The notes below the pieces were generated by a model. The model had not been told where the DNA came from. It did not search any database and was given only the letters and a program-made list of their open reading frames with translations. The translations under genes and the position numbers were made by a program. A DNA stretch of 64,000 bases from the NCBI RefSeq assembly GCF_008039875.1, contig NZ_VRUU01000005.1, positions 62,001 through 126,000 of the forward strand, in the 5' to 3' direction. Positions 16,664 through 40,347 of this stretch are shown piece by piece (within the stretch, counting starts at the first letter, position 1; each line of letters opens with the position of its first letter). Source of the stretch: Methylobacterium sp. WL119 (lineage in GTDB: Bacteria > Pseudomonadota > Alphaproteobacteria > Rhizobiales > Beijerinckiaceae).

Positions 16664-16761
16664 GGTGGGCACAATAGATGCTTGACCCGACGGGCGAAAC
16701 AGGCGAGATCACCACCGTCGGAAGACATGCGCCCGGGGCTCACAAGCCGCCGGGCGTTTCC
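16664..16761. promoter_or_regulatory. structured element A upstream of low-GC moron
   Basis: 98 bases. It carries GGTGGGCA (16664-16671), TTGACCCGACGGGC (16682-16695), 16 bases, CCACCGTCGG (16712-16721), then a perfect long hairpin CGCCCGG...CCGGGCG (about 16729-16756) and TTTCC. CCGACGG and CCGTCGG can pair. Element B at 40223-40347 has the same blocks in the same order with the same 16-base spacer. Read leftward it is the leader or promoter of the 15885-16643 gene; read rightward it ends like a terminator. Confidence 0.6.
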
Positions 16762-17093
16762 ATGTCAGACCGAAACTACCCCAGCACACTAGGGGCCTGA
16801 TGGCACCGTCGCTGCCGCGGTCTCGGGACGGGTCGCCGGGGCCCCGCCTTCCCCAGAGCCGTGACCACTCCTCGGACCGCGAGGGGGCTGGCGGATGTTC
16901 GGTGTAGCGCACGCCGAACGGTAGGCATGGCGCACAGGTGCCGCCTGGAGCCGACCTGATAACGGTCCCGATCGCCCGGCGGGGCGACGAGCTAGGTGGA
17001 AAGCCCGGCGCCCTTCTTCAGCGAACCCGCTCAACAGCTTAGGCGTTCTCCTCGGAGACGTGAGCGCAGTTCCGTGCCATGATCGGTTCCACG
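16762..17093. other. gap without a supported gene
   Basis: 332 bases between element A and the small gene at 17094. Several frames stay open on the minus strand but encode only low-complexity Arg/Pro/Gly peptides without ribosome sites. I see no repeat or RNA gene in it. It may contain the promoter for the rightward 17094 gene. Confidence 0.4.
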
Positions 17094-17360
17094 ATGAGCG
17101 CGATCCAGATTGCCAACGAGATGCGTGCCGCCGCCCGGGACTTCGGGCGCCGCACCCGTTTCGGCGACCAGGCCGAATACCTCGAGGCCAAGGACGATCA
17201 CTGCCGGCGCATGGACCGGCTGCTCGCCGACCTCGTCCGCGCGATCGGCACACCGCCGCCGCTCTCGATCCAGCCCGGCACCCGCCGTCTCGGCGCGCGC
17301 TCGGTCCAGGTCGTGATCCGGGATCGCACGCCCCAGAAGCGGGTCGCGGCGCGAGGCTGA
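17094..17360 (+). CDS. hypothetical phage protein
   Basis: 88 residues starting MSAIQIANEMRAAARDFG; an ATG 15 bases earlier is the alternative. Helical N-terminal part with HCRRMDRLLADLVRAIG, basic tail. Stands alone between the membrane moron and the integrase. Function unknown. Confidence 0.45.
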   Translation: MSAIQIANEMRAAARDFGRRTRFGDQAEYLEAKDDHCRRMDRLLADLVRAIGTPPPLSIQPGTRRLGARSVQVVIRDRTPQKRVAARG

Positions 17361-17369
17361 GCAGCGCCG

Positions 17370-17624
17370 TCAGCAACCGATGCAGATGTCGTGGACCGTG
17401 CGAGGTTCGCGCTTCGGGCCGATTTTCTGATTTGGAAGCCGACCAGCCGGGACCGGCCTCTCGTTCGTGGGCTCAAATGGCCCTCGTTTGGGCGGCGTTT
17501 GCGCAAGTTCGGCGGCTGGAACCGGGGCTCGCGGAACCGTCAAAGCCATCCCCTGAGCGTGGGTCTCGGCGATCGATGTCGCGTCGATCAGTAGGGCAAC
17601 GAGCAGCACCTTCGACCAGGACAT
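17370..17624 (-). CDS. small secreted protein
   Basis: 84 residues with a signal peptide (SKVLLVALLIDATSIAETHA, cleavage near AQG). The mature part is Pro/Arg-rich and ends CIGC. Leftward gene converging on 17094-17360, hence probably an accessory lysogeny gene. Function unknown. Confidence 0.5.
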   Translation of the reverse strand: MSWSKVLLVALLIDATSIAETHAQGMALTVPRAPVPAAELAQTPPKRGPFEPTNERPVPAGRLPNQKIGPKREPRTVHDICIGC

Positions 17625-17744
17625 CGGACCTCACCTTGGCGGCCTAACGCGGGGTCGAAAAAAGAGGTCCATCCCATCGTTCGGCCGCTCGGAGCGGCTG
17701 CACGATAATCGCCCTTCTCGTGCATCCAAACCGGGGTTTTCGGC

Positions 17745-18707
17745 ATGGCCGGAGGCGCAGTTATCGTGCGTCCGGCGACGGATGCGGCGACCCTTCCTGA
17801 TGCGCTCGACCAGGCCGCGGCCGGGTTCGCTGCAGCCTCAAAGTCGGCCGCCACCCGCCGCGCCTACGCCGCCGACTGGCGCGACTTCCTCGGCTGGTGC
17901 GCCGAACATGGCGACGCCACCCTGCCCGCATCGGGCCGCACGGTCGGGCGCTACCTGACCCATCTCGCCGGCCTCGGCCGCTCGGTCTCGACGATCGATC
18001 GCCGGGCCGCCGCCATCGCCGCCGTGCACCGCGCCGCCGGCCACACCGCGCCGACGGCGCTCGAGGAGGTCCGGTCGATCCTGACCGGCATCCGCAACAC
18101 CCTCGGCCGCCGCCCGGACAAGCAACAGGCCCTCACCGCCGACCTGGTGGCGAAGGTCGTGAAGCGCATCCGCGGAACGGACCTCGCGAGCCATCGCGAC
18201 CGCGCGCTGATCCTGCTGTGCTTCGGCGCTGCGCTCCGCCGGTCCGAGCTCGTCGCGCTCGACGTCGCCAATCTGGAACGCCACCGCCGCGGGCTCCTCG
18301 TCCGGATCGGCAAGAGCAAGACCGATCAGCAGGGCATGGGCCGCTCGGTCGCGATCCTCGACGGCAAGCTGAAGATCCCCGCGGCCGTCGCCGCCTGGCT
18401 CGAGATCTCGGGTATCGCCGACGGTCCGGTGTTCCGCGGCGCCGACCGCGGTCGTCTCTCCGCCGATCGCCTTACCGCCGGGCAGTTCGCCCGCATCCTG
18501 AAATCGCGCTGTGCGACGGCCGGGCTCGACCCGGAGGCCTTCAGCGGCCACTCGCCCCGCCGCGGATTCGCGACGTCGGCCGGTGACGACGGGGCCGACC
18601 TCCGGCTGACGGCCAAGCACATGCGCCACGCGAAGCTCGAGACGACGCTGGGCTACATGGAAGACGGCGAGCTGTTCCGCGAGAACGCCGGCCGGAGCTT
18701 CCTGTGA
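17745..18707 (+). CDS. tyrosine recombinase / integrase
   Basis: 320 residues. N-terminal SAM-like core-binding domain (about 20-115: SAATRRAYAADWRDFLGWC) and C-terminal catalytic domain with the full set: Arg165 (GAALRRSELVAL), Lys in GKSKTDQQ (190-192), His269-x-x-Arg272 (GHSPRRG), His295 (MRHAKLETT) and the nucleophile Tyr304 (LGYMED). It can cut and rejoin DNA at an att site or resolve multimers. It is in the interior of the prophage, at least 17.7 kb from one end and about 28 kb from the other, which is unusual for an integrase that uses attP beside its own gene. A chain of small genes starts at its stop (GTGA). Confidence 0.9.
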   Translation: MAGGAVIVRPATDAATLPDALDQAAAGFAAASKSAATRRAYAADWRDFLGWCAEHGDATLPASGRTVGRYLTHLAGLGRSVSTIDRRAAAIAAVHRAAGHTAPTALEEVRSILTGIRNTLGRRPDKQQALTADLVAKVVKRIRGTDLASHRDRALILLCFGAALRRSELVALDVANLERHRRGLLVRIGKSKTDQQGMGRSVAILDGKLKIPAAVAAWLEISGIADGPVFRGADRGRLSADRLTAGQFARILKSRCATAGLDPEAFSGHSPRRGFATSAGDDGADLRLTAKHMRHAKLETTLGYMEDGELFRENAGRSFL

Positions 18708-18895
18708 GCCCCGCGACCACCGCCCGCGCCCTCGCCGGGCTCAACGTCCAGCGCGGCCGCCCGACCGCCGCGCAGTGGGTCGACGCCCTCGCGATCCTCG
18801 CGAACACCACCCGCGCGCCCCGGCACACGCTCCACGTCGAGTTCACGCCGGGCGGCTCGGCCCGGATCACCGAACATCCTTTCGAGAAGGTCTGA
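18704..18895 (+). CDS. hypothetical small phage protein
   Basis: 63 residues from a GTG overlapping the integrase stop. Begins with helix TARALAGLNVQRGRPTAAQW, then a strand pair (HTLHVEFTPGGSARI). The coupling suggests joint expression with the integrase; an excisionase role cannot be shown, as no wHTH is evident. Confidence 0.5.
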   Translation: MSPATTARALAGLNVQRGRPTAAQWVDALAILANTTRAPRHTLHVEFTPGGSARITEHPFEKV

Positions 18896-18897
18896 GT

Positions 18898-19125
18898 ATG
18901 AGCCGCGCATCCGACCTCATCGATCAGGTGGAGGCGAGCGTCGCGGCGCTCGTCGGTCGCTCCGTCGCCGAAGCCGAAGGGCTCGCGATCGATTTCGAGG
19001 CCTACGCGAGCATCGCGCCGAATCCGCTTCGGGAGCGGGTCGCGCTGATCCTCGCCGAGGAAATCCGGACGGCCTCCGACCAGCGTGAGCACCGCCGCGC
19101 GAGCATGCAGAGGTTCCGCCTGTGA
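18898..19125 (+). CDS. hypothetical helical protein
   Basis: 75 residues, start two bases after the preceding stop. Helical (ASDLIDQVEASVAALVGRSV; RERVALILAEEIRTASDQRE). No motif. Stop overlaps the next start. Confidence 0.5.
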   Translation: MSRASDLIDQVEASVAALVGRSVAEAEGLAIDFEAYASIAPNPLRERVALILAEEIRTASDQREHRRASMQRFRL

Positions 19126-19361
19126 TGACCGCCGAGCAGTTCGACCGCCTCCCGGAAATGCTCCGGGACATCGTCGTCACCGACCGGAAGCTCGACGCGG
19201 CTCGCGCCGCGGTCCGTGCCGCCGCCGTGCCCATGATTGCGGACATCCGCCGCCTCGCCGGGCTTCGCGCCGACCAGGTGCGGCGCGCCCGCCACCTCTA
19301 CGGCCGCGCGCCCCTGCGCGGCGAGAACGGGCCGGGCCGGCCCACATCTGCGAGAGCATGA
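19125..19361 (+). CDS. hypothetical helical protein
   Basis: 78 residues from ATG 19125 (GTG 19122 would add one residue). Helical core LDAARAAVRAAAVPMIADIRR and a basic Arg-rich end. Overlaps the next gene by ATGA. Unknown function. Confidence 0.45.
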   Translation: MTAEQFDRLPEMLRDIVVTDRKLDAARAAVRAAAVPMIADIRRLAGLRADQVRRARHLYGRAPLRGENGPGRPTSARA

Positions 19362-19474
19362 TCATGCCCCGCGTCTGCGCCTTCCTGTTCCTGGCCGGCC
19401 TTGCGCTGGCAGCGACGCCCGCCCGGCCGCGCCCCGCGCGGTACGTGTTCCCCGTCTCGCCGACGAGGCACTGA
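19358..19474 (+). CDS. very small signal-peptide-like protein
   Basis: 38 codons (MIMPRVCAFLFLAGLALA then Ala/Pro/Arg). The start overlaps the previous stop by ATGA and the stop overlaps the next start. Likely membrane-anchored or exported. Only coupling supports it as a gene. Confidence 0.4.
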   Translation: MIMPRVCAFLFLAGLALAATPARPRPARYVFPVSPTRH

Positions 19475-19779
19475 TGCGCGACGTGCTCGGCTTCCGCCAC
19501 ACCGCCGGCGTCGCGCTGATCCTCGCCGCCGGCTGGGGCTGGGTCTGGGCGTTCACGCCAGCCCACGCCGACGAAGGTCGCAGCTTCCTCGCCGTCGCGC
19601 TGGTCTGTCCGGCCAACCTCGCCGGCCCGGACTGCTCGCGTGACACGGCGCTCGACATGGCCGTCCAGCCCGTCGCGCTGGTGACGGAATGTGCGCAGGT
19701 CGGCGTGCTGCTCGCGACGCACTTGGCGCTGCAGCCCGGCGAGAGCCACAAGATCCTGTGCGAGCGGCGCCGCGGCTGA
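19474..19779 (+). CDS. small exported Cys-containing protein
   Basis: 101 residues. Signal peptide-like start (GVALILAAGWGWVWAFTPAHA) with a good cleavage site before DEGRSF. The mature part has four Cys (ALVCPANLAGPDCS; ECAQVG; ILCERR), suited to two disulfides in the periplasm. TGATG overlap with the previous gene. Function unknown. Confidence 0.5.
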   Translation: MRDVLGFRHTAGVALILAAGWGWVWAFTPAHADEGRSFLAVALVCPANLAGPDCSRDTALDMAVQPVALVTECAQVGVLLATHLALQPGESHKILCERRRG

Positions 19780-20420
19780 TGCTCACCCGCCCGCGCCCGC
19801 CGACGGACCTGCTCGGGCAGGCCGGCGCGGACACCGCGAACCCGGTCGCCCCCGCGGTCGATCTCGAAGCCTGGATGCGCGCGACCTTCATCGACGAGGA
19901 CGCGCCGCTTCTGAACGAGGACCACGCGCACCTCCGCGATGCCAGCCTCGGCGTCCTGTGGTGCTCGATCCCGAACGAGCGCCAGGGCAACGGCGTCGTC
20001 GGCATGTGCGAGGAGGCGACCTTCATCGGCAACCGCTGGGCGAAGGCCCGGTGGGCGATGCAGATCGCGGGCTGGTTCGGGTCGATCCCGGACTTCCTGC
20101 TGACCTTCCATGCCGACTACGCCGACCAGTGCTCCGACGCCGCGTTCTGCGCGCTGGTCGAACACGAGCTCTACCACGCGGGCCAGAAGAAGGACCGCTG
20201 GGGCGCGCCGCGCTTCAACAGCCAGACCGGCCGGCCCGTCTTCGGCATCCGCGGCCACGACGTCGAGGAGTTCGTCGGCATCGTCGAGCGCTACGGCGTC
20301 GGCAACGCGGCGGGCCAGACCGCGGCGCTGGTCGAGGCGGCCCGGCACACCCCGATCGTCTGCGAGACGGACATCGCCGGCGCCTGCGGGACCTGCGGCC
20401 GATCTTTGACCTCCGCCTGA
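19779..20420 (+). CDS. putative phage metallopeptidase
   Basis: 213 residues starting in a TGATG overlap. The zinc motif HELYH (His129-Glu130-x-x-His133) is followed by GIRGHDVEEFVGIVERYG, the layout of the putative phage metallopeptidase family seen just upstream of terminase genes. Residues 1-60 are a linker. Target unknown; a role in head maturation or host-protein cleavage has not been shown for the family. Proteolysis is inferred from the motif. Confidence 0.7.
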   Translation: MLTRPRPPTDLLGQAGADTANPVAPAVDLEAWMRATFIDEDAPLLNEDHAHLRDASLGVLWCSIPNERQGNGVVGMCEEATFIGNRWAKARWAMQIAGWFGSIPDFLLTFHADYADQCSDAAFCALVEHELYHAGQKKDRWGAPRFNSQTGRPVFGIRGHDVEEFVGIVERYGVGNAAGQTAALVEAARHTPIVCETDIAGACGTCGRSLTSA

Positions 20421-20433
20421 CAGGATTCGCGCC

Positions 20434-20898
20434 GTGGCCACGCTCAACGACGAGGTAAAAACCTTCATCGTCCAACAGCTTGCGTGCTTCGATACGCCCT
20501 CCGGGGTGGCGAAGGCCGTCAAAGAGGAATTCGGGCTCGAGGTGAGCCGACAGGCAGTCGAAGCCTACGATCCCGGCAAGCGGGCGGCGGCCAACCTGTC
20601 GGACGGCTACCGTCAGATCTTCGAGGCGACCCGCACGGCGTTCCTCGCCGAGACGGCGACGATCGGCATCTCGCACAAGGCCGTCCGTCTCCGCACGCTG
20701 CAGCGCCTCGCCGAGAAGGCCGAGCGTCAGGGCAACATGGCCTTCGTGGCTTCGGTGCTTGAGCAGGCCGCAAAAGAGTGCGGCGACGCCTTCACGAACA
20801 AGCGCCAGGTCGAGGCCACGGGCAAGGATGGTTCGCCGCTGATCGACGGCGGGATCACGGTCGCGTTCGTGCGGGCGCCGCCGGTCCATGCAGGTTGA
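20434..20898 (+). CDS. DUF2280 phage protein, small terminase candidate
   Basis: 154 residues from GTG 20434. Opening LNDEVKTFIVQQLACFDTPS, then VAKAVKEEFGLEVSRQAVEA and YDPGKR are the DUF2280 pattern, an HTH-like DNA-recognition domain. The C-terminal part, including VEATGKDGSPLID, is shared with many small terminase subunits. It overlaps the large terminase start by 11 bases. Expected job: recognise phage DNA and load the large subunit. Confidence 0.8.
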   Translation: MATLNDEVKTFIVQQLACFDTPSGVAKAVKEEFGLEVSRQAVEAYDPGKRAAANLSDGYRQIFEATRTAFLAETATIGISHKAVRLRTLQRLAEKAERQGNMAFVASVLEQAAKECGDAFTNKRQVEATGKDGSPLIDGGITVAFVRAPPVHAG

Positions 20899-22201
20899 GT
20901 TTCCGGAGAAGCTCGACTTCCTGTTCGAGCCGGCACGCTACAAGATCGCTTACGGCGGCCGCGGGGGCGCCAAGTCCTGGGGCTTCGGCCGCGCCCTGGT
21001 GATCATGGGCGCGCAGCGGAAGCTTCGGGTGCTCTGCGCTCGCGAATTCCAGAACTCGATCGCGGAATCGGCGCACGCGCTGCTCGCCCAGCAAATCGAC
21101 CTCCTCGGCCTCTCCGGCTTCTACGACACGCAGGAGAAGCGGATCCTCGGCGCGAACGGCACCGAATTCATCTTCAAGGGGCTCCGGCACAACGTCGCCT
21201 CGGTGAAGTCGACCGAGGGCGTCGACGTGTGCTGGGTCGAAGAGGCCCGCACTGTCTCGAAGGCCTCCTGGGACGTGCTGATCCCGACCATCCGCAAGGA
21301 AGGCTCGGAGATCTGGATCAGCTTCAACACCGAGCTCGAAGGCGACGAGACCTACCAGCGCTTCGTGAAGAAGCCGCCGACCGGCGCGCGCGTCGTCAAG
21401 ATCGGCTGGGAGGACAACCCGTGGTTCCCGGACGTGCTCCGGCAGGAGGCGCTCGACCTCAAGGCGCGCGACCCGATCGCCTACGAGACGGTCTGGGGCG
21501 GCAACTGCAAGCAGGTCCTCGACGGCGCGATCTACGCGAACGAGATCCTCGCCGCGGCTCGTGAGAACCGCTTCACGAAGGTCGCCTACGACCCGTCGAA
21601 GCCGGTCCACACCTTCTGGGACCTGGGCCGAGCCGACAAGACGAGCATCTGGTTCGCTCAGATCGTCGGGTTCGAGTTCCGGCTGATCGACTTCTACGAA
21701 AACCGCGGCTTCGCGCTCCAGCACTACCTCGATGTGCTGAAGGCGCGCTCCGAGGGCAAGGACGGCGTCCCGGGCTACGTCTACGGCGAGCACTGGCTGC
21801 CGCACGACGCGCGGAACGAGCTGCTCGCATCCGAGCGAACGATCGAGCAGCAGATGTGGGCGGCCGGGCATCGCGTCCGGATTACTCCGAAGCTCTCGGT
21901 CGCGGCCGGCATCGACGCGGCCCGCAAGATCTTCGCCCGGTGCTGGTTCGACGAGGAGCGGTGCGCCGACGGGCTCCAGGCCCTGCGGAACTACCGCTAC
22001 GAGGTCGACGAGAAGACGCAGGCCTTCTCGAAGAGCCCGCTGCACGACTGGGCCAGCCACGGCTCCGACGCCTTCCGCTACTTCGCCGTCGGCATCGCCG
22101 AGCCGCGCGAGGACGACGCTCCGCCGGACGGCCCCAACGACCGCTACGCGCGCCGCCGGCGCAGCGAGGCACAACCCTCAGGATCGGCATGGGCGGCATG
22201 A
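20888..22201 (+). CDS. terL: terminase large subunit
   Basis: 437 residues, usual length for the PBSX-type group. Walker A GGRGGAKSW at 23-31 and Walker B VDVCWVEEA at 112-120 drive ATP-powered DNA packaging. The C-terminal nuclease begins near FWDLGRADKTSIWF, whose Asp fits the first RuvC-like metal ligand, and ends with HDWASHGSDAFRY. It docks on the portal and cuts concatemers. Followed directly by the portal gene. Confidence 0.9.
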   Translation: MQVEFPEKLDFLFEPARYKIAYGGRGGAKSWGFGRALVIMGAQRKLRVLCAREFQNSIAESAHALLAQQIDLLGLSGFYDTQEKRILGANGTEFIFKGLRHNVASVKSTEGVDVCWVEEARTVSKASWDVLIPTIRKEGSEIWISFNTELEGDETYQRFVKKPPTGARVVKIGWEDNPWFPDVLRQEALDLKARDPIAYETVWGGNCKQVLDGAIYANEILAAARENRFTKVAYDPSKPVHTFWDLGRADKTSIWFAQIVGFEFRLIDFYENRGFALQHYLDVLKARSEGKDGVPGYVYGEHWLPHDARNELLASERTIEQQMWAAGHRVRITPKLSVAAGIDAARKIFARCWFDEERCADGLQALRNYRYEVDEKTQAFSKSPLHDWASHGSDAFRYFAVGIAEPREDDAPPDGPNDRYARRRRSEAQPSGSAWAA

Positions 22202-24156
22202 GCGACATCGACGACGATGCCGGCGCCGACGCGCGCTCGCCCGAGGAGCAGGCCGACCTCGACCGCGAGGCCCGCTTCCGCAAGCTGAAGGCGTGGTACC
22301 GCACCGACCGCGATGCGTCCTCGGCTTGGCGCGCCGACGCGCGGATCGACTTCGACATGGTCGCCGGCCACCAGTGGGCCTCCGAGGACGAGGCCGCCCT
22401 GCGCGAGCAGGGCCGGCCGCCGATCACGTTCAACCGCGTCCTCCCGATCATCAAGGCGGTGGCTGGCGCGGAGGTGAACGCCCGCCTCGACATCCAGTAT
22501 CTGCCCCGGGAGGTCGGCGACGCCGCGCTGAACGAGCTGCTGACCGAGGGCTCGCGCTACCTCGCCGACGAGGCCGAGGCCGAGGACGAGGAGTCGGACG
22601 CATTCGTCGACACGGCGATCTGCGGCATGGGCTGGGTCGAAATGCGTCTCGACTACGAGACCAACCCGGACGGCGACTACGTCGAAGACCGGGTCAACCC
22701 GCTCGAGATGATCTGGGACGCCTCGGCGACGAAGCGGAACCTCGTCGACGCCCGCCGCCTGTTCCGCGCCAAGAGCATGGACATGGCCGAGGCGCGCGGG
22801 CTGTTCCCGGACGCCGACCCCGAGGACCTCGACGCGGCCTGGGCCGAGGATCGCGACGGAGAGCAGCACCACCAGATCCAGCCGGACCAGAAACGCAGCG
22901 ACCGCCCCGGCGACGTCTCTGACGGCACCTCGCGCGTCACCATCGTCGAGGCGACCTGGTGGGAGCGCAAGCGCGTCGCCATCGTCACCGACCCGACCAC
23001 GGGCGAGAGCCAGGAGATGGAGCCGGCCAAGGCCGACGTCCTCGAGCGGCGCGCCGCCGCGCTTGGGATGCAGGTCGACATCCGCCGCATCACGAAGCGG
23101 GTCTACCGCCGCGCCTTCCTCGGCAACACGATCCTGAAGGAGACGCCCTCGCCCGCCGGGGACCGCTTCGCCTACGCCTGCATCACGGGCGACCGCGACC
23201 AGAACCGGAACTCGTGGTTCGGCATCGTGCGCCCGATGCGCGACCCGCAGCGCTTCGCGAACAAGTGGCTCTCGCAGACCCTCGACATGCTTAACCGCCA
23301 AGCCAAGGGCGGCCTGCTGATGGAGAAGACTGCGGTGCCCGACCAAGCCGCGTTCGAGGCGAGCTACGGCAAGCCCGGCGCCATTTCGTGGGTGACGGAC
23401 GGTACCCTGCAAAGCAGTCGCATGAAGGAAAAGCCGCTGCCGGTCCTGCCGGCCGGCCACTACCAGCTGATGGAGTTCGCCATTGGCTCGATCCGCGACG
23501 CCTCGGGCGTGAACCTCGAGCTGCTCGGCCAGAAGCAGAACGACCAAGCCGGCGTGCTGGAGTACCAGCGCAAGCAGGCCGCGATGACGATCCTCGCCTC
23601 GCTGTTCGACAGCCTCCGGCGCGCGCGCAAGCACATCGGTCGGGTGCGCCTCTACATGATCCAGACCTTCCTCTCGGACGGACGCTTGGTTCGGATCATG
23701 GGCGAAGGCGTGATGCGGATCGTGCCGATGCTGCGGGACAAGACCGCCGGCGACTACGACGTGGTGATCGACGACGCGCCGTCCTCGCCGAACCAGCAGC
23801 AGGTCGTCTGGCAGACCTTCACCAGCGTCCTGCCGATCATCAAGGACATGATCACCCCGCAGGTCCTGCTCGAGGTCCTGCCCTACTCGCCGTTCCCCGA
23901 CTCGTTCGTCGCCAAGATGCGCGAGCTGCTCGCCCAGCCAGCGCAACCGTCGCCGGAACAGCAGCAGCACCAGCAGATCGCCGTCCAGACCGCGCTCGCC
24001 AAGATCCAGGACATGACGGCCGGCGCGAACCTGAAGAACGCCAAGGCCGGCCGCGAGGCGGGCCTGACGCATCACGACACCCTCGACGGCTTCGCCAAGG
24101 TCGCGGCGATGGCCGCGCCGCCTCAGGCGCCCGCACAGGCCGGCTTCGCCGCCTGA
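22189..24156 (+). CDS. portal protein, P22-like
   Basis: 655 residues from ATG 22189 (AGGA 5-8 bases upstream); ATG 22198, which overlaps the terminase stop, is the alternative. Residues about 45-85 (DFDMVAGHQWASEDEAALRE, GRPPITFNRVLPIIKAVAG) and 90-240 match podoviral P22-type portals; the middle has GIVRPMRDPQRFANKWLSQT and NLELLGQKQNDQAGVLEYQR. C-terminal 70 residues are Gln/Ala-rich helix, as in P22 barrel. Forms the dodecameric DNA gate at one capsid vertex. Confidence 0.85.
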   Translation: MGGMSDIDDDAGADARSPEEQADLDREARFRKLKAWYRTDRDASSAWRADARIDFDMVAGHQWASEDEAALREQGRPPITFNRVLPIIKAVAGAEVNARLDIQYLPREVGDAALNELLTEGSRYLADEAEAEDEESDAFVDTAICGMGWVEMRLDYETNPDGDYVEDRVNPLEMIWDASATKRNLVDARRLFRAKSMDMAEARGLFPDADPEDLDAAWAEDRDGEQHHQIQPDQKRSDRPGDVSDGTSRVTIVEATWWERKRVAIVTDPTTGESQEMEPAKADVLERRAAALGMQVDIRRITKRVYRRAFLGNTILKETPSPAGDRFAYACITGDRDQNRNSWFGIVRPMRDPQRFANKWLSQTLDMLNRQAKGGLLMEKTAVPDQAAFEASYGKPGAISWVTDGTLQSSRMKEKPLPVLPAGHYQLMEFAIGSIRDASGVNLELLGQKQNDQAGVLEYQRKQAAMTILASLFDSLRRARKHIGRVRLYMIQTFLSDGRLVRIMGEGVMRIVPMLRDKTAGDYDVVIDDAPSSPNQQQVVWQTFTSVLPIIKDMITPQVLLEVLPYSPFPDSFVAKMRELLAQPAQPSPEQQQHQQIAVQTALAKIQDMTAGANLKNAKAGREAGLTHHDTLDGFAKVAAMAAPPQAPAQAGFAA

Positions 24157-24217
24157 CCCCTTACGCCCGCCGGCGGCGCACGCCGGCATCCGTCTCCATC
24201 ACGTCACGAGGTTCCAC

Positions 24218-25246: not shown

Positions 25247-25250
25247 TCCG

Positions 25251-26207
25251 ATGCGTCGCCTGATCCTCGCCGCGGCTCTCATCGTCGCGCTCCAGCCGGC
25301 CGAGTTCGCGCGCACGGCGATGGAGACCAACCAACTCGTCGACGACAACGGCGCCCCGATCGGGACGCCGGCGAACCCGCTGAACGTGACCTGTAAGGCG
25401 GGCTGCACGGGCGGCTCCGGCGGAAGCGGTGGCACGGTCACGCAGGGACCGGCCGCGACCGACACGTCTGCCAACCGCTGGCCGGTGCTGGCCTACCAGG
25501 GCGGGACGTGGGTGCTCGGCGCGGGATCGGCCAGCATCGGCTCGATCGCCAACACCGCGTTCGGCATCTCCGGCACGCTGCCGGCCTTTGCTGCGACGCC
25601 GACGTTCAATCTCGGCACGCTGAACGGTGCGGCGACCGCTGCGAACCAAGCTTCGGAGATCGCGGCCCTCGGCGCGCCGGGCGATGCTGCCAACGCCAAT
25701 ACCGTCATCGGCCAGCTGAAGCAGGCGAACGCGAACCTGCTCGTCGCCACGCCTGCTGCGGTCACGACGGCCGCACCGTCCTACGCGACAGGGACGACGC
25801 AGGCCCTGAGCCTGACAACGGCGGGCGGCCTTCGCGTTGATGGCTCGGGCGTGACACAGCCCGCACTTCTCCGGCCCACCGCCGATACCGCCAGCGGTAT
25901 CACGCCGGCCGGCGCGAGCGCATCCACCGCCTACGCGGTTAAGAGCGGTTCGACCAACCTCTACGGCTACAGCATCACGATGAGCTCGACGGCGGGTTTC
26001 CTCGCGCTGCTGAACAGTGGGTCCGCACCAGCTTCCGGGGCGACCATCGGACCGCTCGAATGCATTCCGGTCGCGGCGGCGGGGTACGCCGTCCGGCGTC
26101 AGGACATTCCCGACCGTTACCCGGCTGGGCTCACCGTCGTCATCACGTCGTCCTGCACGACCTACACCCCGGTGACGCCGGTGGTTTCGACCGTGCTGGC
26201 TCAGTAG
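25251..26207 (+). CDS. head-region structural protein with signal-like N terminus
   Basis: 318 residues. The N terminus is an export-type stretch (LILAAALIVALQPAEFA). An internal start at METNQLVDDN (residue 24) would remove it. The rest is Thr/Ser/Ala/Gly-rich and beta-prone with short repeats (ANPLNVTCKAGC; AATAANQASEIAAL), resembling decoration or fibre-like proteins. It lies between scaffold and capsid genes. Role unknown; decoration or fibre is inference. Confidence 0.55.
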   Translation: MRRLILAAALIVALQPAEFARTAMETNQLVDDNGAPIGTPANPLNVTCKAGCTGGSGGSGGTVTQGPAATDTSANRWPVLAYQGGTWVLGAGSASIGSIANTAFGISGTLPAFAATPTFNLGTLNGAATAANQASEIAALGAPGDAANANTVIGQLKQANANLLVATPAAVTTAAPSYATGTTQALSLTTAGGLRVDGSGVTQPALLRPTADTASGITPAGASASTAYAVKSGSTNLYGYSITMSSTAGFLALLNSGSAPASGATIGPLECIPVAAAGYAVRRQDIPDRYPAGLTVVITSSCTTYTPVTPVVSTVLAQ

Positions 26208-26538
26208 CCGCTTGACCCCGCGGGCGAACCCCGTCATTCCCCTATTCGTCGCGAGACGTGCGGGCGCCCTGCCCCGGTCGCGACCTTCACCTTCGACCGA
26301 CCGGCCCTGAACACACCCTCCATCTCGCGGGGCGCGTTCGTGTGTCCGGTCACCTTCGCCTGATCGCCCGTCACGCGATCCGCACAGCCGCGTCAGAGCC
26401 TTCGTCCGCGCCACGTACGGCGCCCGTCCGACCACCGTCCCCAACGGTCATCCGGGGCCCGGCCTTCGTCCGCTCGCGGCGTCACGCGCAGCACGAACCC
26501 CTTCCCGCATTCCCCCGATCTCCGAAGGACCCCCTCCG
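26208..26538. other. leader region before the capsid gene
   Basis: 331 bases with no supported gene. It is C-rich with few purine runs. TTGACCCCGCGGGC at 26212-26225 resembles the core of elements A and B in 12 of 14 positions but lacks the second block. GAAGGA before the capsid ATG is the ribosome site. It probably acts as an untranslated leader or promoter for abundant capsid expression. Confidence 0.5.
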
Positions 26539-27642
26539 ATGGGTACCACCACCTATGGCCTGAACGACGCGCTCGCCGCCAAGCTCTGGTCGATGAAGCT
26601 CTCCACCGAGGCCACCAAGGCGCTCGACATCGGCCCGCTGTTCGGCGAGTCCGCCAAGTCCGTGATCCAGGTCAAGACCGAGACCCAAAAGGGCACCGGC
26701 GACAAGGTCACCTTCGGCCTGCGCATGCAGCTGTCGGGCAACGGCTTCACCTCGTCCGATCGCGCCGAGGGTAACGGCGAGCAGCTGACCACGAACTCCG
26801 ACGCGATCACCATCGACGAGCTCGGCAACGTCGTCGGCATCCGCTCGAAGAACACCATCGATTCCCAGCGCGTGCCGTTCAACCTGCGCGACGAGGCCAA
26901 GGACGGCCTGGTCGATTGGTTCCAGCTGCGCACCTCGGTGACGTTCTTCAACCACGTCTGTGGCTACACCCCCGCGAACTTCGTCCAGGTCGACGGCTCG
27001 GGCGGCGTGAAGTTCACCGGCAACAACGTGGTCACCGCCGCGACCCGCGTCATCCGCCCGAACGCCCGCGCCAACGACGGCGCGCTGGTCGCCGGCGACA
27101 TCCTCACGCTCGACCAGATCGACGCCGCGGTCGAGATCGCCAAGACCGGCGGCAACGCCGGCGGCGTGAAGATGCGCCCGATCACCATCGACGGCATGGA
27201 CGAGTGCTGGGTGATGTACCTCCACCCGACGCAGGTGACGCAGCTGCGCCGCAACACCGCCGCGGGTCAGTGGTTCGACATCAAGAAGGCCGCGCTTCAG
27301 GGTGGCCAGATCACCAAGAACGCGATCTTCAACGGCTCGGTCGGCATGTACAACAGGGTCATCCTGCGCGAGTCGCAGCAGGTGACCCTCGGCGTCGCCG
27401 CCGACGGCAAGACCATCATCCCGACCGTGCGCCGCGCGGTCCTGATGGGTGCCCAGGCCGCGACTGCCGCCTTCGGCAAGTCCGGCGGCCCGACGAAGTA
27501 CCGCTGGAACGAAGAGCTCTACGACCACAAGCGCGAGCTCGAGGTCTCGGCCTGGGCGATCTGGGGCCTGAAGAAGACGACCTTCAACGGTGCCGACTTC
27601 GCCGCGATCGTCATCCCGACCTACGCCGTCAACGCCGGCTGA
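26539..27642 (+). CDS. major capsid protein, N4 gp56/DUF4043 type
   Basis: 367 residues. Near-start YGLNDALAAKLWSMKLSTEA, then LDIGPLFGESAKSVIQVKTE, then GDKVTFGLRMQLSGNGF and RSKNTIDSQRVPFNLRDEA match the N4-gp56 family capsid proteins, an HK97-like fold. Later WVMYLHPTQVTQLRRN and ELEVSAWAIWGLKKTTF fit as well. It forms the icosahedral shell. A 9-bp inverted repeat follows the stop, as often behind capsid genes. Confidence 0.85.
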   Translation: MGTTTYGLNDALAAKLWSMKLSTEATKALDIGPLFGESAKSVIQVKTETQKGTGDKVTFGLRMQLSGNGFTSSDRAEGNGEQLTTNSDAITIDELGNVVGIRSKNTIDSQRVPFNLRDEAKDGLVDWFQLRTSVTFFNHVCGYTPANFVQVDGSGGVKFTGNNVVTAATRVIRPNARANDGALVAGDILTLDQIDAAVEIAKTGGNAGGVKMRPITIDGMDECWVMYLHPTQVTQLRRNTAAGQWFDIKKAALQGGQITKNAIFNGSVGMYNRVILRESQQVTLGVAADGKTIIPTVRRAVLMGAQAATAAFGKSGGPTKYRWNEELYDHKRELEVSAWAIWGLKKTTFNGADFAAIVIPTYAVNAG

Positions 27643-31100: not shown

Positions 31101-31101
31101 C

Positions 31102-32415: not shown

Positions 32416-32425
32416 GGGCGGTTCC

Positions 32426-35400: not shown

Positions 35401-35437
35401 CGAGACCGAACTGCGTCGCCGGGGGATGATGCGTTGA
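32426..35437 (+). CDS. large ejected virion protein with ADP-ribosyltransferase-like domain
   Basis: 1003 residues. Residues about 169-370 carry an ART-like pattern: WDLFHGT (169-175), a FLSPAAGEANHYA motif (about 204) and DQVVALTPGRVRSF (about 354-367), the ends that flank NAD-binding in phage and bacterial ART domains. Residues 400-590 are a Pro/Ala-rich linker, and the C-terminal 400 residues are helical with an Ala/Gly-rich segment, as in internal virion proteins. Overlaps the next gene by ATGA. If ART activity is real, it would enter the cell with the DNA. The catalytic Glu cannot be fixed by eye. Confidence 0.6.
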   Translation: MASSPAPFGFLPPGVLSGLRRSVIDPETGNAVVTSAPTGEVVQRSAVLPIGRDDDGRLTPAVPGLIADAPQSIASALTLPRDAWRGDVQTQPTMMSADEGRRVADLAGTAMTGSLPFGVPKGALRMFGGAATHEVDPFAALEAGLAAGMKDAEPIARPIARVDPTAKSWDLFHGTAAPEDFARFNPHLAASSRPHTPEGETGAVFLSPAAGEANHYASARSSSGPDAAGPRVIRTTVDPGKTDVFDLPALFENDPTFVARARDAFIQDAKSNGADPDVVARAGSVFDERHARMLDEFRIARDLNAQLAELGYPATEVPQVQWGYGATSAAIQRAREQGLDTAVLRGLSESNGGDQVVALTPGRVRSFYAPDQLLYSGGPSGAGVGVAALAARSDAQAAPSQGTPPMSAGPALFGFNLSPEDIARLMRQQGADPRADMPAEDAAPVSFLTQHGPDGFVIPPAVRATAPAGDPSALRPDEQAAAVAASAPAPSLENAPARLAPAPQSLTGLPPSFSFPDPVAPRSAPAPASRVAAHAPAPEVDDAPAPMTVPLPPQRALGLGAPSQADMPAVGAVPAQGQAPAGAPAVPEKEGPGIGAILGRLGDAGVGDQMMAFGSGLMSKHGFGAGAAAGFDNMQRASKDRAVTDLAKADLSLKQRKIAQETAALGGNAAIIKRAFPTLSDAEAIAAGSNGGQVTEALKILRDPNHGRENDPAIVKARAQAQAEGTAAGSKDDVQIVTRPDGSIAAVNKSQIGEPNAAAVTTVAPATGGTRIWGAPGPDGQVVQAPPNTPAGTPGYYDEKGAPHVSLTQGTNQLPQKANTELDAAAVKAITESRAKAEGAVGTIAAINRQKEALDNGIVSGAGADWRTKARAITAQILGIPDSYVTQSQLFDQAATQKSAELAKAISQSGHTTNMDLQLGKTISSGDRSSVEAALRAGIEAQEILAKKTIEHHNSSVDRFATPETAQRAGFFKVEQPEIYQYKPTAPDRSAVETELRRRGMMR

Positions 35438-38400
35438 GCGACCTGTCGAAGCTCTCCGACGACGAGCTGATGCGGCTCTACCACGCCACGCCGGAGCCGA
35501 AGCCGGCGCCCGGCGCGGCGCCGACGGCAGATCTCTCCAAGATGTCGGACGCCGACCTGATGAAGCTGCACGCCAGCTTCACGGACGCGCCCTCCTCCGG
35601 CGTGGCCGGCGATGATGTTGCTGCCGTCGGGCGCGGGATCATCGACGGCGTGCCGGTGGTCGGCCCGTACCTCACCGCTGGCGTGAACAAGGCCGTCGCC
35701 GGCGTGCGCGCGCTCCAGCACGACACGAAGTACAGCGACGAGCTGCGCAACGTGGAGAATTTCGGACGCGCCACGGCGGCCGAGCACCCGATCGCCGACA
35801 TGGCGGGCCAGCTGGCGGGCGGTGTCGTCGGCACGCTTCCGCTAGTTGCCGTCGCGCCCGCCGCGTTCGGCGCGGGTGCCGGCGGGTTGGCAGCTCGCAC
35901 GGGCGCCTCGCTTCTTAGCGGGGGCGTACTGGGTGGTGCCGATGCGGCCGTCCGGAACGATGGCGACCTGCCTGCGACCAAGGATGGCGCCTTGATTGGC
36001 GCGGGCCTTGGCGCGGCCGGTCCTATCGCTGGGCGCCTCGTCGGCAAGGCTGTCACCGCGATGCGGGGTGGCGATCCCGGGATGCACCTCCTGCGGGAAG
36101 CGACGCACGGGATATCCGAATCCGAACTAGCCTCGGCGCAGGCGATCCGTGACAGCTCGCGCGCGCTTCCGGGCGGCGGCGTCGAAATCCCCCTCGACGA
36201 GGCGCTGAACCGCGCCACCGACGGACGGGCCGGGCGCGTTTCGCAGCTCTCCCGCGTCGCGGCGAACTCCGGCGGCGAGGGCGGGCGGATCGCCTCCGAG
36301 GTCTATGCCGGCCGGCCCGCGTCGATCGACAACGTGTCCCGTGCGCTATTCGACCAGATCGCGCCGGAGAACGTGGCGCCGTCGGCCGTCGGGCTCGACG
36401 TCCAGTCGGCGGCGCGCGCCGGCGTCCGACAGACCCCCGAGGGCGTAGCCCTGGATCAGGCCCGCGCCGCCGTCGGCCCGCGCGTCACGCCGGATCAGGC
36501 CGGCCGCACGATCCAGCCGGAGATGCGCAACGTCGCCGACGCACGCGAGGCCGTCCGGTCGCTGCAGGCCGATCGCGATTATGCCGCCGCGCGCGCTGCG
36601 CCGGAGAATGCCGGCATCGAGCGCACGGTCACGGTGGAGCGCCCCGGCGAGCCGGTCGTGATCCAGCCGACCTACAGCCGGCCACAGTTCGAGGCCGATG
36701 CTCCCCGCCCGGCTGACCCGGCACCGGTCCGCGGCGCGGCCACCGAGGCTGATGCGCAGGGTGAGAGCCTCGCCCGCTTCATCGCGCGCAACGGCGGCCT
36801 CGACCTCACGAGCGATCTGCGCAGCCAGGACTTCCACCGGTTCAACATCCCCGGCGCCGGCACGGTGGCGCGAGAGGGCGGCAAGCCGCTCGACAGCTTC
36901 TGGCGCGTGAAGCTGATGGAGGCGGGCTACCTGCGGCCGGACGCCGACGGTGGCATGGCACGGGACATCCGCGGCGAGCTGATGCGCAAGCTCACGAACG
37001 AGCGCCGCGGCGTGCCGTCGTACCCGATCGGGCAGGAGCGGGCGCCGCTCGGCGAGCGGCTGAAGGCCGGGCAGATCGCCGACGACTTCAGCCACGCCCG
37101 CGACCTCGCCGAGAGCCGCCTGAACGAGGACCTGACCCGCGTCGGCGTCGATCCGGCGAGCGTGCATCCGGACATCCGCGACCGCGTCCTCGGCACGCTG
37201 ATGCGCGACGGCGGCGCTGATCCGGTCGAAGCCTACGAAGCGGTCGTCGGCAAGATGAAGGGGCCGCTCGAGCCCTACACAAAGACGCCGACCATCACCG
37301 AGGAGATCCCGGACGTCCGATTCGGGCAGGTGAACCCGATGCCGGCGCTTGATGCGGTCGCCGGGCAAGCCCGCACCGCCAAGAGCGACGTGCGGGGGGC
37401 GCTCGGCAACGTCCGACGCGACCTGATTAGCGCGGACGGCCAGCCCGACATGAGCGTCGAGGGCCTGCTGCACGCCCGCGAGCGCAACGACTTCGCGATC
37501 CGGCAGGCGCAGGAGGTCGGCGACGCGACGAAGGTGCGTGACCTCACGATCCCTCGGCAGGCGCTCGACCGGCAGCTGAAGGCCGTCCCCGAGGTCGCGA
37601 CGGCCGACGCCAACTTCGCCGCGAACAGTCGGCCTCTGGAGCCGTTCACCGGCAACACCCCGCTCGGGCGCGTGGTCCAGCGCGATCCGACCACCGGCCG
37701 GATGGCGACGCCGACCGAGCAGGTACCGAGCCATCTGCAGGGCGCCTCGGCCGCACGCGAGTTCCTGGCGAATGCGACGCCGGCCGCGCGCCAGGCCTAC
37801 GAGGGCCATGTCGCGACCCGCATCCTCGACGCGGCGACCGACCGGCGCGGCACGATCAATCCGGACGCCCTGAACCAGGCGCTGCGCGAGCACGTCGACG
37901 TGCTGACGGAGATGCCGGACGTCTACCATCGCCTCGACGACGTGGTGCGCGCCCGCGACGGGCTCGCTCGCGTCGAGAAGAGCCCGCTCGGGCAGCTCGC
38001 CCAGACCGACGACGTCCGCCGCGCCGTCAACGTGCTGTTCCCGCAGGTGCCGCAGGGCGCGAACCACCATGAGATCGCCGCGGCGATGACGGCGGTGGCC
38101 CGCAACAACCCGGCGGCCGCGCGTGACCTGACGCGGATCTACCTCGAGACGCTGTTCAATGAATCGACCCAGCAGGTGAAGGGCATCGCGGCGCAATACG
38201 GCGGCGCGGGCTTCGCCTCAGCGGTACGCGGCAACCCCCAGCAGCGCCACAACCTCGAAGCGGTCCTGCGCGTCCTGCCCGACGGCGAGATGCGCGCGGC
38301 TGCGGTCGACCGGCTGCTGACGACCCTCGAGGCGACCGGCTACAGGCCGCAGAAGGGCTCGGATACCGCGTTCAACCAGGCGATCCAGAAGCAACTCGCC

Positions 38401-38730
38401 AGCGGCAACACCCCGGTCGGACAGGCGATCGCGAGCGCAGCGTCCGGCGCGACGGCGGGCGCCACCGTCGGCGGCCTTAGCGGGGCGCTCGGCGGCGGTG
38501 TGGTCGGCCTGAAGCACGGCATCAGCGATGCGGTGACCCATGCTCGGATGATGGGGAACGGCGAGGCGATCGCGCGGCTGATCTACGATCCGAAGGCGCT
38601 TCCGGACCTGCGGGCTCTCTCGAAGTCGCCGCCCGGCTCGAAGAACGCCGAGCTCTTCACGGCGCGGCTGCTGCGCCTGGCGAACGACGGCCAGCGGCCG
38701 GTCGTGAATCAGTCAGCGACGGCGCGGTAG
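35434..38730 (+). CDS. very large ejection (internal virion) protein
   Basis: 1098 residues. The N terminus repeats a short helix, LSKLSDDELMRLYHA then LSKMSDADLMKLHASF. Glycine/alanine-rich hydrophobic stretches at about 120-190 (GQLAGGVVGTLPLVAVAPAA) and near 1020-1040 (SGATAGATVGGLSGALGGGV) suit membrane insertion during ejection. The rest is helical and rich in Arg/Ala/Asp. It is the last gene of the ejection block. Its last 18 bases overlap the end of the convergent leftward moron. Confidence 0.7.
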   Translation: MSDLSKLSDDELMRLYHATPEPKPAPGAAPTADLSKMSDADLMKLHASFTDAPSSGVAGDDVAAVGRGIIDGVPVVGPYLTAGVNKAVAGVRALQHDTKYSDELRNVENFGRATAAEHPIADMAGQLAGGVVGTLPLVAVAPAAFGAGAGGLAARTGASLLSGGVLGGADAAVRNDGDLPATKDGALIGAGLGAAGPIAGRLVGKAVTAMRGGDPGMHLLREATHGISESELASAQAIRDSSRALPGGGVEIPLDEALNRATDGRAGRVSQLSRVAANSGGEGGRIASEVYAGRPASIDNVSRALFDQIAPENVAPSAVGLDVQSAARAGVRQTPEGVALDQARAAVGPRVTPDQAGRTIQPEMRNVADAREAVRSLQADRDYAAARAAPENAGIERTVTVERPGEPVVIQPTYSRPQFEADAPRPADPAPVRGAATEADAQGESLARFIARNGGLDLTSDLRSQDFHRFNIPGAGTVAREGGKPLDSFWRVKLMEAGYLRPDADGGMARDIRGELMRKLTNERRGVPSYPIGQERAPLGERLKAGQIADDFSHARDLAESRLNEDLTRVGVDPASVHPDIRDRVLGTLMRDGGADPVEAYEAVVGKMKGPLEPYTKTPTITEEIPDVRFGQVNPMPALDAVAGQARTAKSDVRGALGNVRRDLISADGQPDMSVEGLLHARERNDFAIRQAQEVGDATKVRDLTIPRQALDRQLKAVPEVATADANFAANSRPLEPFTGNTPLGRVVQRDPTTGRMATPTEQVPSHLQGASAAREFLANATPAARQAYEGHVATRILDAATDRRGTINPDALNQALREHVDVLTEMPDVYHRLDDVVRARDGLARVEKSPLGQLAQTDDVRRAVNVLFPQVPQGANHHEIAAAMTAVARNNPAAARDLTRIYLETLFNESTQQVKGIAAQYGGAGFASAVRGNPQQRHNLEAVLRVLPDGEMRAAAVDRLLTTLEATGYRPQKGSDTAFNQAIQKQLASGNTPVGQAIASAASGATAGATVGGLSGALGGGVVGLKHGISDAVTHARMMGNGEAIARLIYDPKALPDLRALSKSPPGSKNAELFTARLLRLANDGQRPVVNQSATAR

Positions 38731-38937
38731 GAAGGGGCGCATCCGGCCGGCCTCGTTGCGAGGCCAGTAGCCGACGACCGCCGCAACGACGAATATCGCC
38801 ACGATGAAGGCGATTGAGCCGCACTCACCGACGGAGTCGGTCAGCCAACGATTGAAGCCCGGCACAACGAGCTTCAGCACCCAGCCGATTGCCAGCATGA
38901 CGGCGGTGAACAGGACGAAGGCCACGACGCGATGCAT
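38713..38937 (-). CDS. small two-span membrane protein, moron gene 5
   Basis: 74 residues from ATG 38935-38937. Spans: VVAFVLFTAVMLAIGWVLKL and SIAFIVAIFVVAAVVGYW; Arg-rich C terminus (RMRPFLPRRR). Last gene of the leftward five-gene cluster, sharing a base with the preceding stop/start. No recognised family. Confidence 0.55.
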   Translation of the reverse strand: MHRVVAFVLFTAVMLAIGWVLKLVVPGFNRWLTDSVGECGSIAFIVAIFVVAAVVGYWPRNEAGRMRPFLPRRR

Positions 38938-39167
38938 CACAGCACCTTCGTGCAGACCGCGTGGATGCTTCCCTCGCCGTTGGGGCCGGTCGGGATCGCA
39001 CAACGCTGCATGCTACCGGTCAGCCTGTCCAGGAGATAGAAGGTGTCCCAGCCCATCGAATCCTTCGAGAAGTTGACCGCTTCCCAGCGGTTGGATAGCG
39101 CGCCGACCATCGCAGAAATGATGATCGCTGCGAGGAGCGTGGCGGGAACGGCGAGCCAGCGGGGCAT
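38937..39167 (-). CDS. small membrane-anchored protein, moron gene 4
   Basis: 76 residues from ATG 39165-39167. One N-terminal span (WLAVPATLLAAIIISAMVGA) followed by an outside domain with two Cys (RCAIPTGP; HAVCTKVL), which could form a disulfide. Coupled to the next gene. Exclusion or immunity is possible but unproven. Confidence 0.55.
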   Translation of the reverse strand: MPRWLAVPATLLAAIIISAMVGALSNRWEAVNFSKDSMGWDTFYLLDRLTGSMQRCAIPTGPNGEGSIHAVCTKVL

Positions 39168-39172
39168 AGTGA

Positions 39173-39655
39173 TCAGTGCATGAGCTTGGAGATCGCGAAC
39201 GCGATCGCGCTGATGCCGCCCAACATGCCGACAATGATCGCCACCGTCTGCCACGTGGTCGGGATGCTCGTTACGCGGCCAGAGACATTCTCCATCTTGC
39301 CGGTCAGTTCTCCATGCATCCGCGCCAACCCGGCCGCGTCAGCAGTGTGATCGAGACGCGTTTCGAGTTTCGCCAGTACCGTATCGACGGCGCCGAATCG
39401 ATCCGACATCCCACTGAACCGCTTCTCGTTCTCCAAACGGCCGTCGCCGATGGACCTTGAGATAGCGTCCAGCTTGTCGAGGATCGCCTTCTGACCGTCT
39501 TCGAGAGCTTTAACGCGCGGTCCCATAGGATCTTCTGGGCCTCCCCCGTCTCCGGTATTCATAGCCCCACCTATGACTGCACGATCGACAGCAATCGCAC
39601 TGCGGCTGGACGACGATGCTAACTGCGAATAGCTCGTCTTTCGCCTTTCAGCCAT
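39173..39655 (-). CDS. coiled-coil protein with C-terminal membrane span, moron gene 3
   Basis: 160 residues from ATG 39653-39655, which has GGAGGGAG upstream. Heptads over about 45-130 (ALEDGQKAILDKLDAISRSI) and a C-terminal span (VAIIVGMLGGISAIAFAI). Layout resembles tail-anchored phage proteins such as the one at 45748 in the lysis block. It may oligomerise at the inner membrane. Function unknown. Confidence 0.6.
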   Translation of the reverse strand: MAERRKTSYSQLASSSSRSAIAVDRAVIGGAMNTGDGGGPEDPMGPRVKALEDGQKAILDKLDAISRSIGDGRLENEKRFSGMSDRFGAVDTVLAKLETRLDHTADAAGLARMHGELTGKMENVSGRVTSIPTTWQTVAIIVGMLGGISAIAFAISKLMH

Positions 39656-39659
39656 ACAG

Positions 39660-39968
39660 TTACTCCCTCCCTAAATTTTTTTCTTTTATCCATTTAACTA
39701 TCGCAGCGCGTCGAATGAATTTTACGTTGGCGCAGGTTTGACACTCGACAATCATAACTTTAATGTTGTTACTAGTAATTTCTTGGTCGCTGGACTTTAC
39801 GTCGATTGCACCATAAATTTGTTCATCAAGTGGTCCTATGAACCAGCTTTGACTTTTACAAATTTCACATATGAATTCCCCACCGGATTTTTCTTCAAGA
39901 TAGCTCGTTACATCGGAGTATGAGAGCTTTTCGATGTCTGGCGGGTCGAACAAATTTGGAAAAGCCAT
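39660..39968 (-). CDS. low-GC zinc-ribbon-like protein, moron gene 2
   Basis: 102 residues from ATG 39966-39968. Two CxxC knuckles, FICEICKSQSW and VECQTCANVKF, 45 residues apart, suggest one zinc ribbon; the C terminus is basic (WIKEKNLGRE). Much lower GC than its surroundings (about 40%), so acquired separately. Function unknown; binding of nucleic acid or protein is possible. Confidence 0.6.
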   Translation of the reverse strand: MAFPNLFDPPDIEKLSYSDVTSYLEEKSGGEFICEICKSQSWFIGPLDEQIYGAIDVKSSDQEITSNNIKVMIVECQTCANVKFIRRAAIVKWIKEKNLGRE

Positions 39969-40198
39969 CAGTTCGCCCCCTCTGGATCTTCTCGGTTCGG
40001 GAGCAGGCCCTGGCCTGTAAGCCAATCGCGTAGCGCGTAACGAACAGCGTCAGGCCGCGACGCTAAAGGCTCATTCGCTGTCTTGGCGCGCATGAAAGCA
40101 TCCAGCGCGTCGATCATCGGCGCGGGCATGCGGACGTTCACGGCAGCGGTATCGAGCCGCGGCCTGCCCCTTGGTCGGCGATCCAAATGCGTCGTCAT
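39968..40198 (-). CDS. ribbon-helix-helix DNA-binding protein, moron gene 1
   Basis: 76 residues. Basic start (RRPRGRPRLDTAAVNVRMPA) gives the beta strand, then PMIDALDAFMRAKT and ASRPDAVRYALRDWLTGQG the two helices of an Arc/CopG-type fold. First gene of the leftward cluster, 24 bases after element B, so it may regulate its own cluster. Confidence 0.7.
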   Translation of the reverse strand: MTTHLDRRPRGRPRLDTAAVNVRMPAPMIDALDAFMRAKTANEPLASRPDAVRYALRDWLTGQGLLPNREDPEGAN

Positions 40199-40222
40199 CG
40201 CTTTTCATAGCGCTATTAAATC

Positions 40223-40347
40223 GGTGGGCAAGCTGCCCCCTGTATTACCCTTGACCCGACGGGCAATCCGCCTGAATAAGCCACCGTCAGGCGCCCTGCG
40301 CGCCGGCAGACAAGGCCGCTCCGAGATGGGCGGCCTTTCGCGTTTCC
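40223..40347. promoter_or_regulatory. structured element B upstream of five-gene moron
   Basis: 125 bases with GGTGGGCA (40223-40230), TTGACCCGACGGGC (40251-40264), 16 bases, CCACCGTCAG (40281-40290), then AAGGCCGC...GCGGCCTT as an 8-bp perfect stem (about 40312-40337) and GCGTTTCC (40340-40347). Same order and the same 16-base spacer as element A, 23.6 kb away. Read leftward it precedes the cluster; on the other side it ends 10 bases before the lysozyme start. Confidence 0.6.

Follow-up and report, generated by a model that had tools for sequence, protein, structure and literature searches.

How do temperate phages of the Alphaproteobacteria, whose late control is to our knowledge almost unknown, turn on their late genes? 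The question is raised by a prophage in Methylobacterium sp. WL119, carried on a 64,000-nucleotide stretch of contig NZ_VRUU01000005.1 (positions 62,001 to 126,000; hereafter the window, to which all plain coordinates refer). A preliminary description had noted two matched structured elements there, each just upstream of leftward cargo genes (morons), and had proposed that they serve those genes. We find instead that the elements belong to a family usually present three times per prophage (copies A, B and C), that they point rightward along the late genes, and that copy A follows the gene of a candidate regulator (15148-15813). We consider it probable, at roughly 0.78, that this protein is an antiterminator acting in the manner of lambdoid Q or of GafZ, with three loading sites per prophage.

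The matched elements are real. The pattern TTGACCCGACGGGC-N16-CCACCGTC(G/A)G is found at 16682-16721 (copy A) and 40251-40290 (copy C), against a mean of 0.00 expected from 100 shuffles, and with up to 3 mismatches these are its only sites in the 5.7-Mb genome. The 14-bp block TTGACCCGACGGGC alone, at the same tolerance, gives 20 matches versus 16.9 expected, which is not above chance; significance resides in the two-block pattern and not in the lone block. Downstream hairpins and GCGTTTCC are present at both copies. By contrast, GGTGGGCA, previously counted as part of the element, occurs within the 70 upstream bases in just these 2 of the 93 distinct copies described below. What had been taken for a diverged single block at 26212 is a full third copy (B), with its own -35, dyad CCCGCGGG, weak -10 and hairpin, located 327 bp upstream of the major capsid gene. 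An Rfam scan of the window returned a tRNA as its sole match.

Further copies, the prospect of which had been raised with the original pair, exist in genomes of the genus, in viral contigs and in other genome contigs. At up to 3 mismatches the pattern occurs in 36 of 111 genus genomes, 20 viral contigs and 12 stretches of genome contigs. The genus matches are partly chance coding ones (e.g. TTGACCAGACGGGC types); three of the 12 stretches (Mycolicibacterium, Paenibacillus, Aeromicrobium) seem to be chance matches, and another is from Bradyrhizobium. The viral contigs hold 42 matches, and 13 of the 20 have more than one copy. When 40 fetched regions (1.58 Mb) were scanned with a matrix, 84 copies reached at least 18 bits and the reversed matrix gave no match of at least 12 bits; 13 copies near diverged regulator genes bring the total to 97, of which 93 are distinct. 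A search of plasmid DNA yielded a single 36-bp match, which was ignored, and the known phages of INPHARED gave no protein match at E ≤ 1.

The element consists, in order, of TTGACC (-35), a 17-bp spacer beginning CGACGGGC(G/A)AA and containing a dyad (CCCG-A/T-CGGG), a -10 hexamer, CCACCGTC and two hairpins: a short one whose stem opens with GTC, then a GC-rich one with a T-rich tail (often GCGTTTC or GCATGTCC). The hexamer has A at position 2 in 82 of the 93 copies and T at position 6 in none, and it matches at most 3 of the 6 bases of TATAAT; the absence of T at position 6 looks as if a strong promoter had been selected against. Upstream, conservation in the 93 copies ends sharply at TTGACC, save for a C at -1, and no conserved site was found beyond the -35. 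Column conservation is strongest in the untranscribed promoter DNA and includes the -35/-10 spacer. Given that a plain promoter does not need a conserved spacer, this counts for a promoter element bound by a regulator. The dyad is seen in every group of copies. Within one phage (G003; L189, L190) it reads CCCGTCGGG at copy A versus CCTGAGG at copies B and C.

A terminator-like hairpin follows within 110 nt in 73 of the 93 copies versus 221 of 2000 random stretches under our own, looser rule; those without one are mostly class B. At copies A and C of the window the hairpin follows the promoter-like element at once, copy B being the exception. For 25 class A leaders RNAalifold gives GTC-N4-GAC plus a second hairpin, together 13 pairs, of which 3 show changes in both partners, for the most part within the second hairpin. 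We base the class A structure on this consensus; a simple hairpin finder had misplaced several of the stems. Hairpin lengths differ among the 30 class C leaders (a class B copy at G017 22909 was left out), and a swap test was therefore used: the 5' and 3' arms of one leader pair better with each other than after swapping between leaders (mean 4.2 versus 3.5 bp; 19 distinct pairs), a pairing reached by 18 of 20000 permutations. The second hairpin of class C has 16 distinct stem sequences among the 30 leaders. Compensatory change is present, although not in the stem first named (CCGACGG/CCGTCGG), which is not kept, as copies with CCCGTCGGG still carry CCGTC or CCGTG downstream; it is found in another stem, GTC...GAC, just downstream. 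In class B leaders, such as those at 26247-26350 of the window and in G098, inspection by eye shows that GAGACG can pair with either the upstream CGTC or the downstream CGTCTC, a possible switch between two folds.

The copies are regularly placed. Three are present in 20 of 23 prophage regions, four in G017 and two in G058 and G033; this count includes window copy B and the A copies of G113 and G127, all missed by the matrix, the latter two because their dyad sits 2 bp further from TTGACA. Every copy in a region is on one strand, that of the late genes. Copy A comes after the regulator gene and before integrase, terminase or tRNA genes. Copy B lies 46-332 bp before the major head gene in 15 of the 23 regions, and copy C 85-109 bp before a gene of the 40358 cluster in 14, with the tail/lysis block beyond; these distances derive from crude gene calls, and the 40358 cluster merges two window genes.

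The candidate regulator gene is closely linked to this arrangement. Its protein cluster (221 amino acids in the window) is found in 22 of the 23 regions, the clusters of portal, terminase and major head protein in 21, 19 and 16. In all 22 gene-bearing regions copy A lies downstream of it, at -3 bp to 3 kb and often with cargo between, and in G031, G102, G111, G126, G113 and G127 copy A and the stop codon of the gene overlap. G033, whose region is the only one lacking the gene, carries it on a different contig together with an element. Among the 111 genus genomes, 30 have the gene: 19 of 22 with strict elements, a set picked by hand, versus 11 of 89 others (Fisher p 5e-11), or, with uncurated element matches, 22 of 36 versus 8 of 75 (p 6e-8). 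Four genomes have a close gene and no strict match, and all carry a diverged element downstream. The association is strong by three counts. Diverged genes also pair with diverged elements: G086 has TTGACCGCTGACAGCGG two bases past the gene and G003 has two dyads, while the elements of G030 and G032, taken from a loose TTGAC-plus-hairpin scan of 6 kb, are less certain. No element was found at distant homologues in G001, G002, G011 and G516. In a sample of 397 genomes from the order, the gene turned up in only 10, and most of these matches are weak.

At E ≤ 10 the window protein has no match among Pfam or PHROGs families. Neither it nor its profile matched the sequence of a PDB chain, and NCBIfam offered nothing credible. 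Of the 22 members aligned (24 cluster members minus one duplicate and one fragment), 4 match phrog_21451, of unknown function (best 1.3e-4), and PF20057 is not among the families matched by any at E ≤ 10. In structural comparison with VIA-align, Q21 (6p18) was ranked first for both of two predicted models (Z 9.3, over 121 and 127 residues, root mean square deviation 6.1 and 6.9). The next match of the second model has Z 5.6, and sigma region-4 structures follow Q21. Among viral models (BFVD), the Foldseek matches at E < 0.001 were three uncharacterised proteins, with DUF6456 proteins next (E 6.7e-3 and 0.029). A search of ten of the phage records for DUF6456 gave no match. The host genome has a DUF6456 gene of its own, apart from the prophage (G000:C219:4104-4496, E 1.2e-41), which is probably the regulator of a gene transfer agent (GTA).

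Table 1. Features at and around the three copies in the window, and tRNA loci that follow copy A in related prophages.
Feature	Position	Strand	Remark
Candidate antiterminator gene, 221 amino acids, GTG start; the last of the clear rightward early genes, with copy A following	15148-15813	+	
Leftward low-GC cargo gene between candidate antiterminator gene and copy A	15885-16643	-	no PHROG match
Copy A promoter: -35 TTGACC 16682-16687; dyad CCCGACGGG 16686-16694; -10-like GAGATC 16705-16710	16682-16710	+	-10 placed by 17-bp spacing and column conservation
Copy A putative RNA start and short 5' hairpin GTC-GGAA-GAC	16717-16726	+	class A consensus GTC-N4-GAC, 25 leaders
Copy A terminator-like hairpin and T-rich tail	16729-16761	+	fold z -3.68; class A consensus
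Genes beyond copy A: integrase 17745-18707; terminase large subunit 20888-22201; portal 21856-24156	17745-24156	+	
Copy B: TTGACC 26212-26217; dyad CCCGCGGG 26217-26224; CATTCC 26235-26240; hairpin CGTC-GCGA-GACG 26247-26258	26212-26258	+	
Major head protein gene, downstream of copy B	26539-27642	+	
Leftward cargo genes between late block and copy C	38713-40198	-	no PHROG match, three open reading frames tested
Copy C promoter: -35 TTGACC 40251-40256; dyad CCCGACGGG 40255-40263; -10-like GAATAA 40274-40279	40251-40279	+	
Copy C putative RNA start and 5' hairpin	40286-40311	+	fold; swap test over class C leaders
Copy C terminator-like hairpin (AAGGCCGCTC/GGGCGGCCTT), tail TCGCGTTTCC	40312-40347	+	
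GGAG ribosome-binding site and first tail/lysis-block gene (40358-41110)	40348-41110	+	PHROG 'peptidase' match
tRNA loci after copy A	L014:1485-1560; L083:1842-1919; L087:14499-14575; L092:3851-3927; L134:11241-11393; L119:12838-12913; L122:2476-2551		

The gene that opens the tail/lysis block adjoins tail-collar (41192-42454) and endolysin (44112-44981) genes. Between copy A and the terminase, the integrase gene and a 'transposase' PHROG gene (19689-20420, + strand) both run in the late direction, an uncommon arrangement in temperate phages. Directly after copy A stands a tRNA gene (Asn, Met, Arg or Thr) in 7 of the 9 loci that were scanned, and hence phage tRNAs would head the late transcript. 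Near the right side of the prophage lies a gene of the adenosine 5'-phosphosulfate kinase family (49209-49841, - strand; PF01583, E 1.5e-63).

Since the elements share the layout of the Q21/lambda and GafZ systems, the simplest account is an antiterminator of this kind with three loading sites. Each element would combine a late promoter that points rightward with a leader that carries a terminator, and in cells lacking the phage regulator the transcript would stop at the hairpin, giving a short RNA like the lambda 6S RNA. The early 15148-15813 protein would bind the dyad between -35 and -10, load onto RNA polymerase near the promoter and let it pass the hairpin and later terminators; given the poor -10, it may also help initiation. 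One protein would thereby serve three sites, before integrase/terminase/portal (A), capsid (B) and the tail-fibre/lysis block (C). A more specific version is possible but doubtful: a new-family antiterminator, phage cousin of Q21 and GafZ, reloaded at three promoter-terminator stations, with the 5' RNA hairpin replacing the sigma-dependent pause as loading signal. That the conserved 5' hairpin might do the job of the -10-like pause element is speculation.

Several observations weigh against antitermination at three stations. The -10-like pause element of lambda and 21 is matched at 4 or more of 6 positions in 1 of 93 copies, no more than in shuffles. The dyad is statistically notable only in G086, G030 and G032; that of the main group, taken alone, is unremarkable (P 0.16). 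The minimum-energy fold of window copy A lacks the 5' hairpin, RNAalifold on a MAFFT alignment of the 30 class C leaders recovers 4 terminator-stem pairs and no 5' hairpin, which we attribute to the differing hairpin lengths, and a strict built-in scanner finds neither promoter nor terminator at the window copies. At copy B the leader folds no better than shuffles (z 0.51), and the terminator is unconvincing. As for the gene, two other late clusters are nearly universal too (23 and 21 regions); hence it is not presence alone that singles the regulator gene out but its place. G005, G063 and G101 have strict elements and no regulator gene, and in the diverged phages a search for dyad-bearing B and C copies found only one copy each. 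The two protein models are middling (predicted local distance difference test scores 67 and 70), with a confident helical core. Foldseek found nothing in the PDB at E ≤ 0.001 (best E 0.41), and Q21 was not among the 50 matches listed. Compared by profile, the likeness to DUF6456 is weak and varies with the alignment used (E 5.8e-4 and 29% probability with 30 rows, E 0.081 and 0.7% with 22 rows), so that the similarity is suggestive only.

The leading alternative is a plain activator: the late promoters would depend on this or another activating protein, and the hairpins would only stabilise or time the late mRNAs, with no antitermination. A -10 that never has T at position 6 nor more than 3 of 6 bases of TATAAT probably needs help, sigma-region-4 folds are among the structural matches, and GafZ raised reporter activity about fourfold without a terminator (PMC11150451). 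We nevertheless hold it unlikely, as no conserved site lies upstream of the -35, the conserved block lies where the sites of Q, AlpA and GafZ lie, and the terminator-like hairpin directly before the ribosome-binding site of copy C is hard to explain without control of read-through. The dyad could also be an operator through which the prophage repressor silences late promoters in the lysogen; its overlap with the -35 end would block RNA polymerase, and several copies on one strand resemble stoperator-type sites. However, the copies are tied to the 15148 gene and the late blocks, none was found at the window's early divergent promoters, and the leader hairpins would be left unexplained, making this improbable.

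Two consecutive 5'-end hairpins with compensatory change bring to mind the put RNA of phage HK022, in which case the leader itself would modify RNA polymerase and no phage protein would be needed. With conservation strongest in untranscribed DNA, variable hairpin sequences and a tight link to a neighbouring regulator gene, this is very improbable. What remains is the proposal in the preliminary description of a leader, promoter or small RNA for leftward morons, which drew on the two window copies first described standing 39-53 bp before leftward genes. The promoter, the structured leader and a possible small RNA all survive from it, whereas the strand and the target do not: -35, -10, leader hairpins, T-rich tail and the ribosome-binding site and ATG of copy C all run rightward, and the gene caller, a crude one, puts a leftward gene nearest upstream in no more than 28 of 85 copies. 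Leftward morons are thus frequent neighbours and not regulated genes, and their control by the element is scarcely credible. The DNA directly upstream of the late promoters seems able to take up cargo on either strand without harm.

Should a Q-like system with several sites operate here, a single late region could have antitermination imposed on it anew at several points, which would account for the insertion of cargo (morons, tRNAs) between late blocks with late expression intact. Under the more specific version, with a phage cousin of Q21 and GafZ reloaded at three stations, the three late blocks would be separately gated and GTA control would be tied to phage late control. The elements themselves offer a simple marker of late promoters in Methylobacterium prophages.

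Lambdoid late control by Q uses one site per prophage, unlike the three present here. In both lambda and 21, as set out in PMC6606751, Q binds a block between the late-promoter -35 and -10, is loaded onto RNA polymerase during a pause, and keeps the terminator further on from acting; the Q-binding element of 21 is there a 6-bp direct repeat, whereas the spacer here holds a dyad. The general order of the lambda/21 Q and pR'-tR' arrangement is retained (regulator gene, promoter with a conserved -35/-10 block, a terminator-like hairpin soon after the putative start, late genes beyond), and by VIA-align the regulator's predicted fold is nearest Q21; the conserved 5' hairpin and a regulator with no sequence match to a Q family are differences. 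The HK022 put RNA, which acts alone and in early operons (PMC9378689), likewise forms hairpins at the transcript start, but in the present elements conservation peaks in the DNA spacer, and they are linked to a regulator gene. GafZ of the Caulobacter GTA has as its binding site a near-perfect palindrome that lies between -35 and -10, and it enables polymerase to run past a terminator (PMC11150451); one target is described for it, with GafY and integration host factor needed at the promoter (PMC11150451 and PMC9638019). NusA, NusG and NusE take part in antitermination of the GafZ type. Like GafZ and the C-terminal part (DUF6456) of Rhodobacter GafA, the present system is alphaproteobacterial and has its dyad between -35 and -10. 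The likeness would extend to a sigma-like helix-turn-helix and to antitermination (PMC11150451 and PMC9638019), and DUF6456 phage proteins are among its BFVD fold matches; unlike GafZ, it has no PF20057 match, and its elements have no conserved upstream site. A Q21-like predicted fold combined with a GafZ-like position of the DNA site makes a testable link between phage antiterminators and a gene transfer agent regulator.

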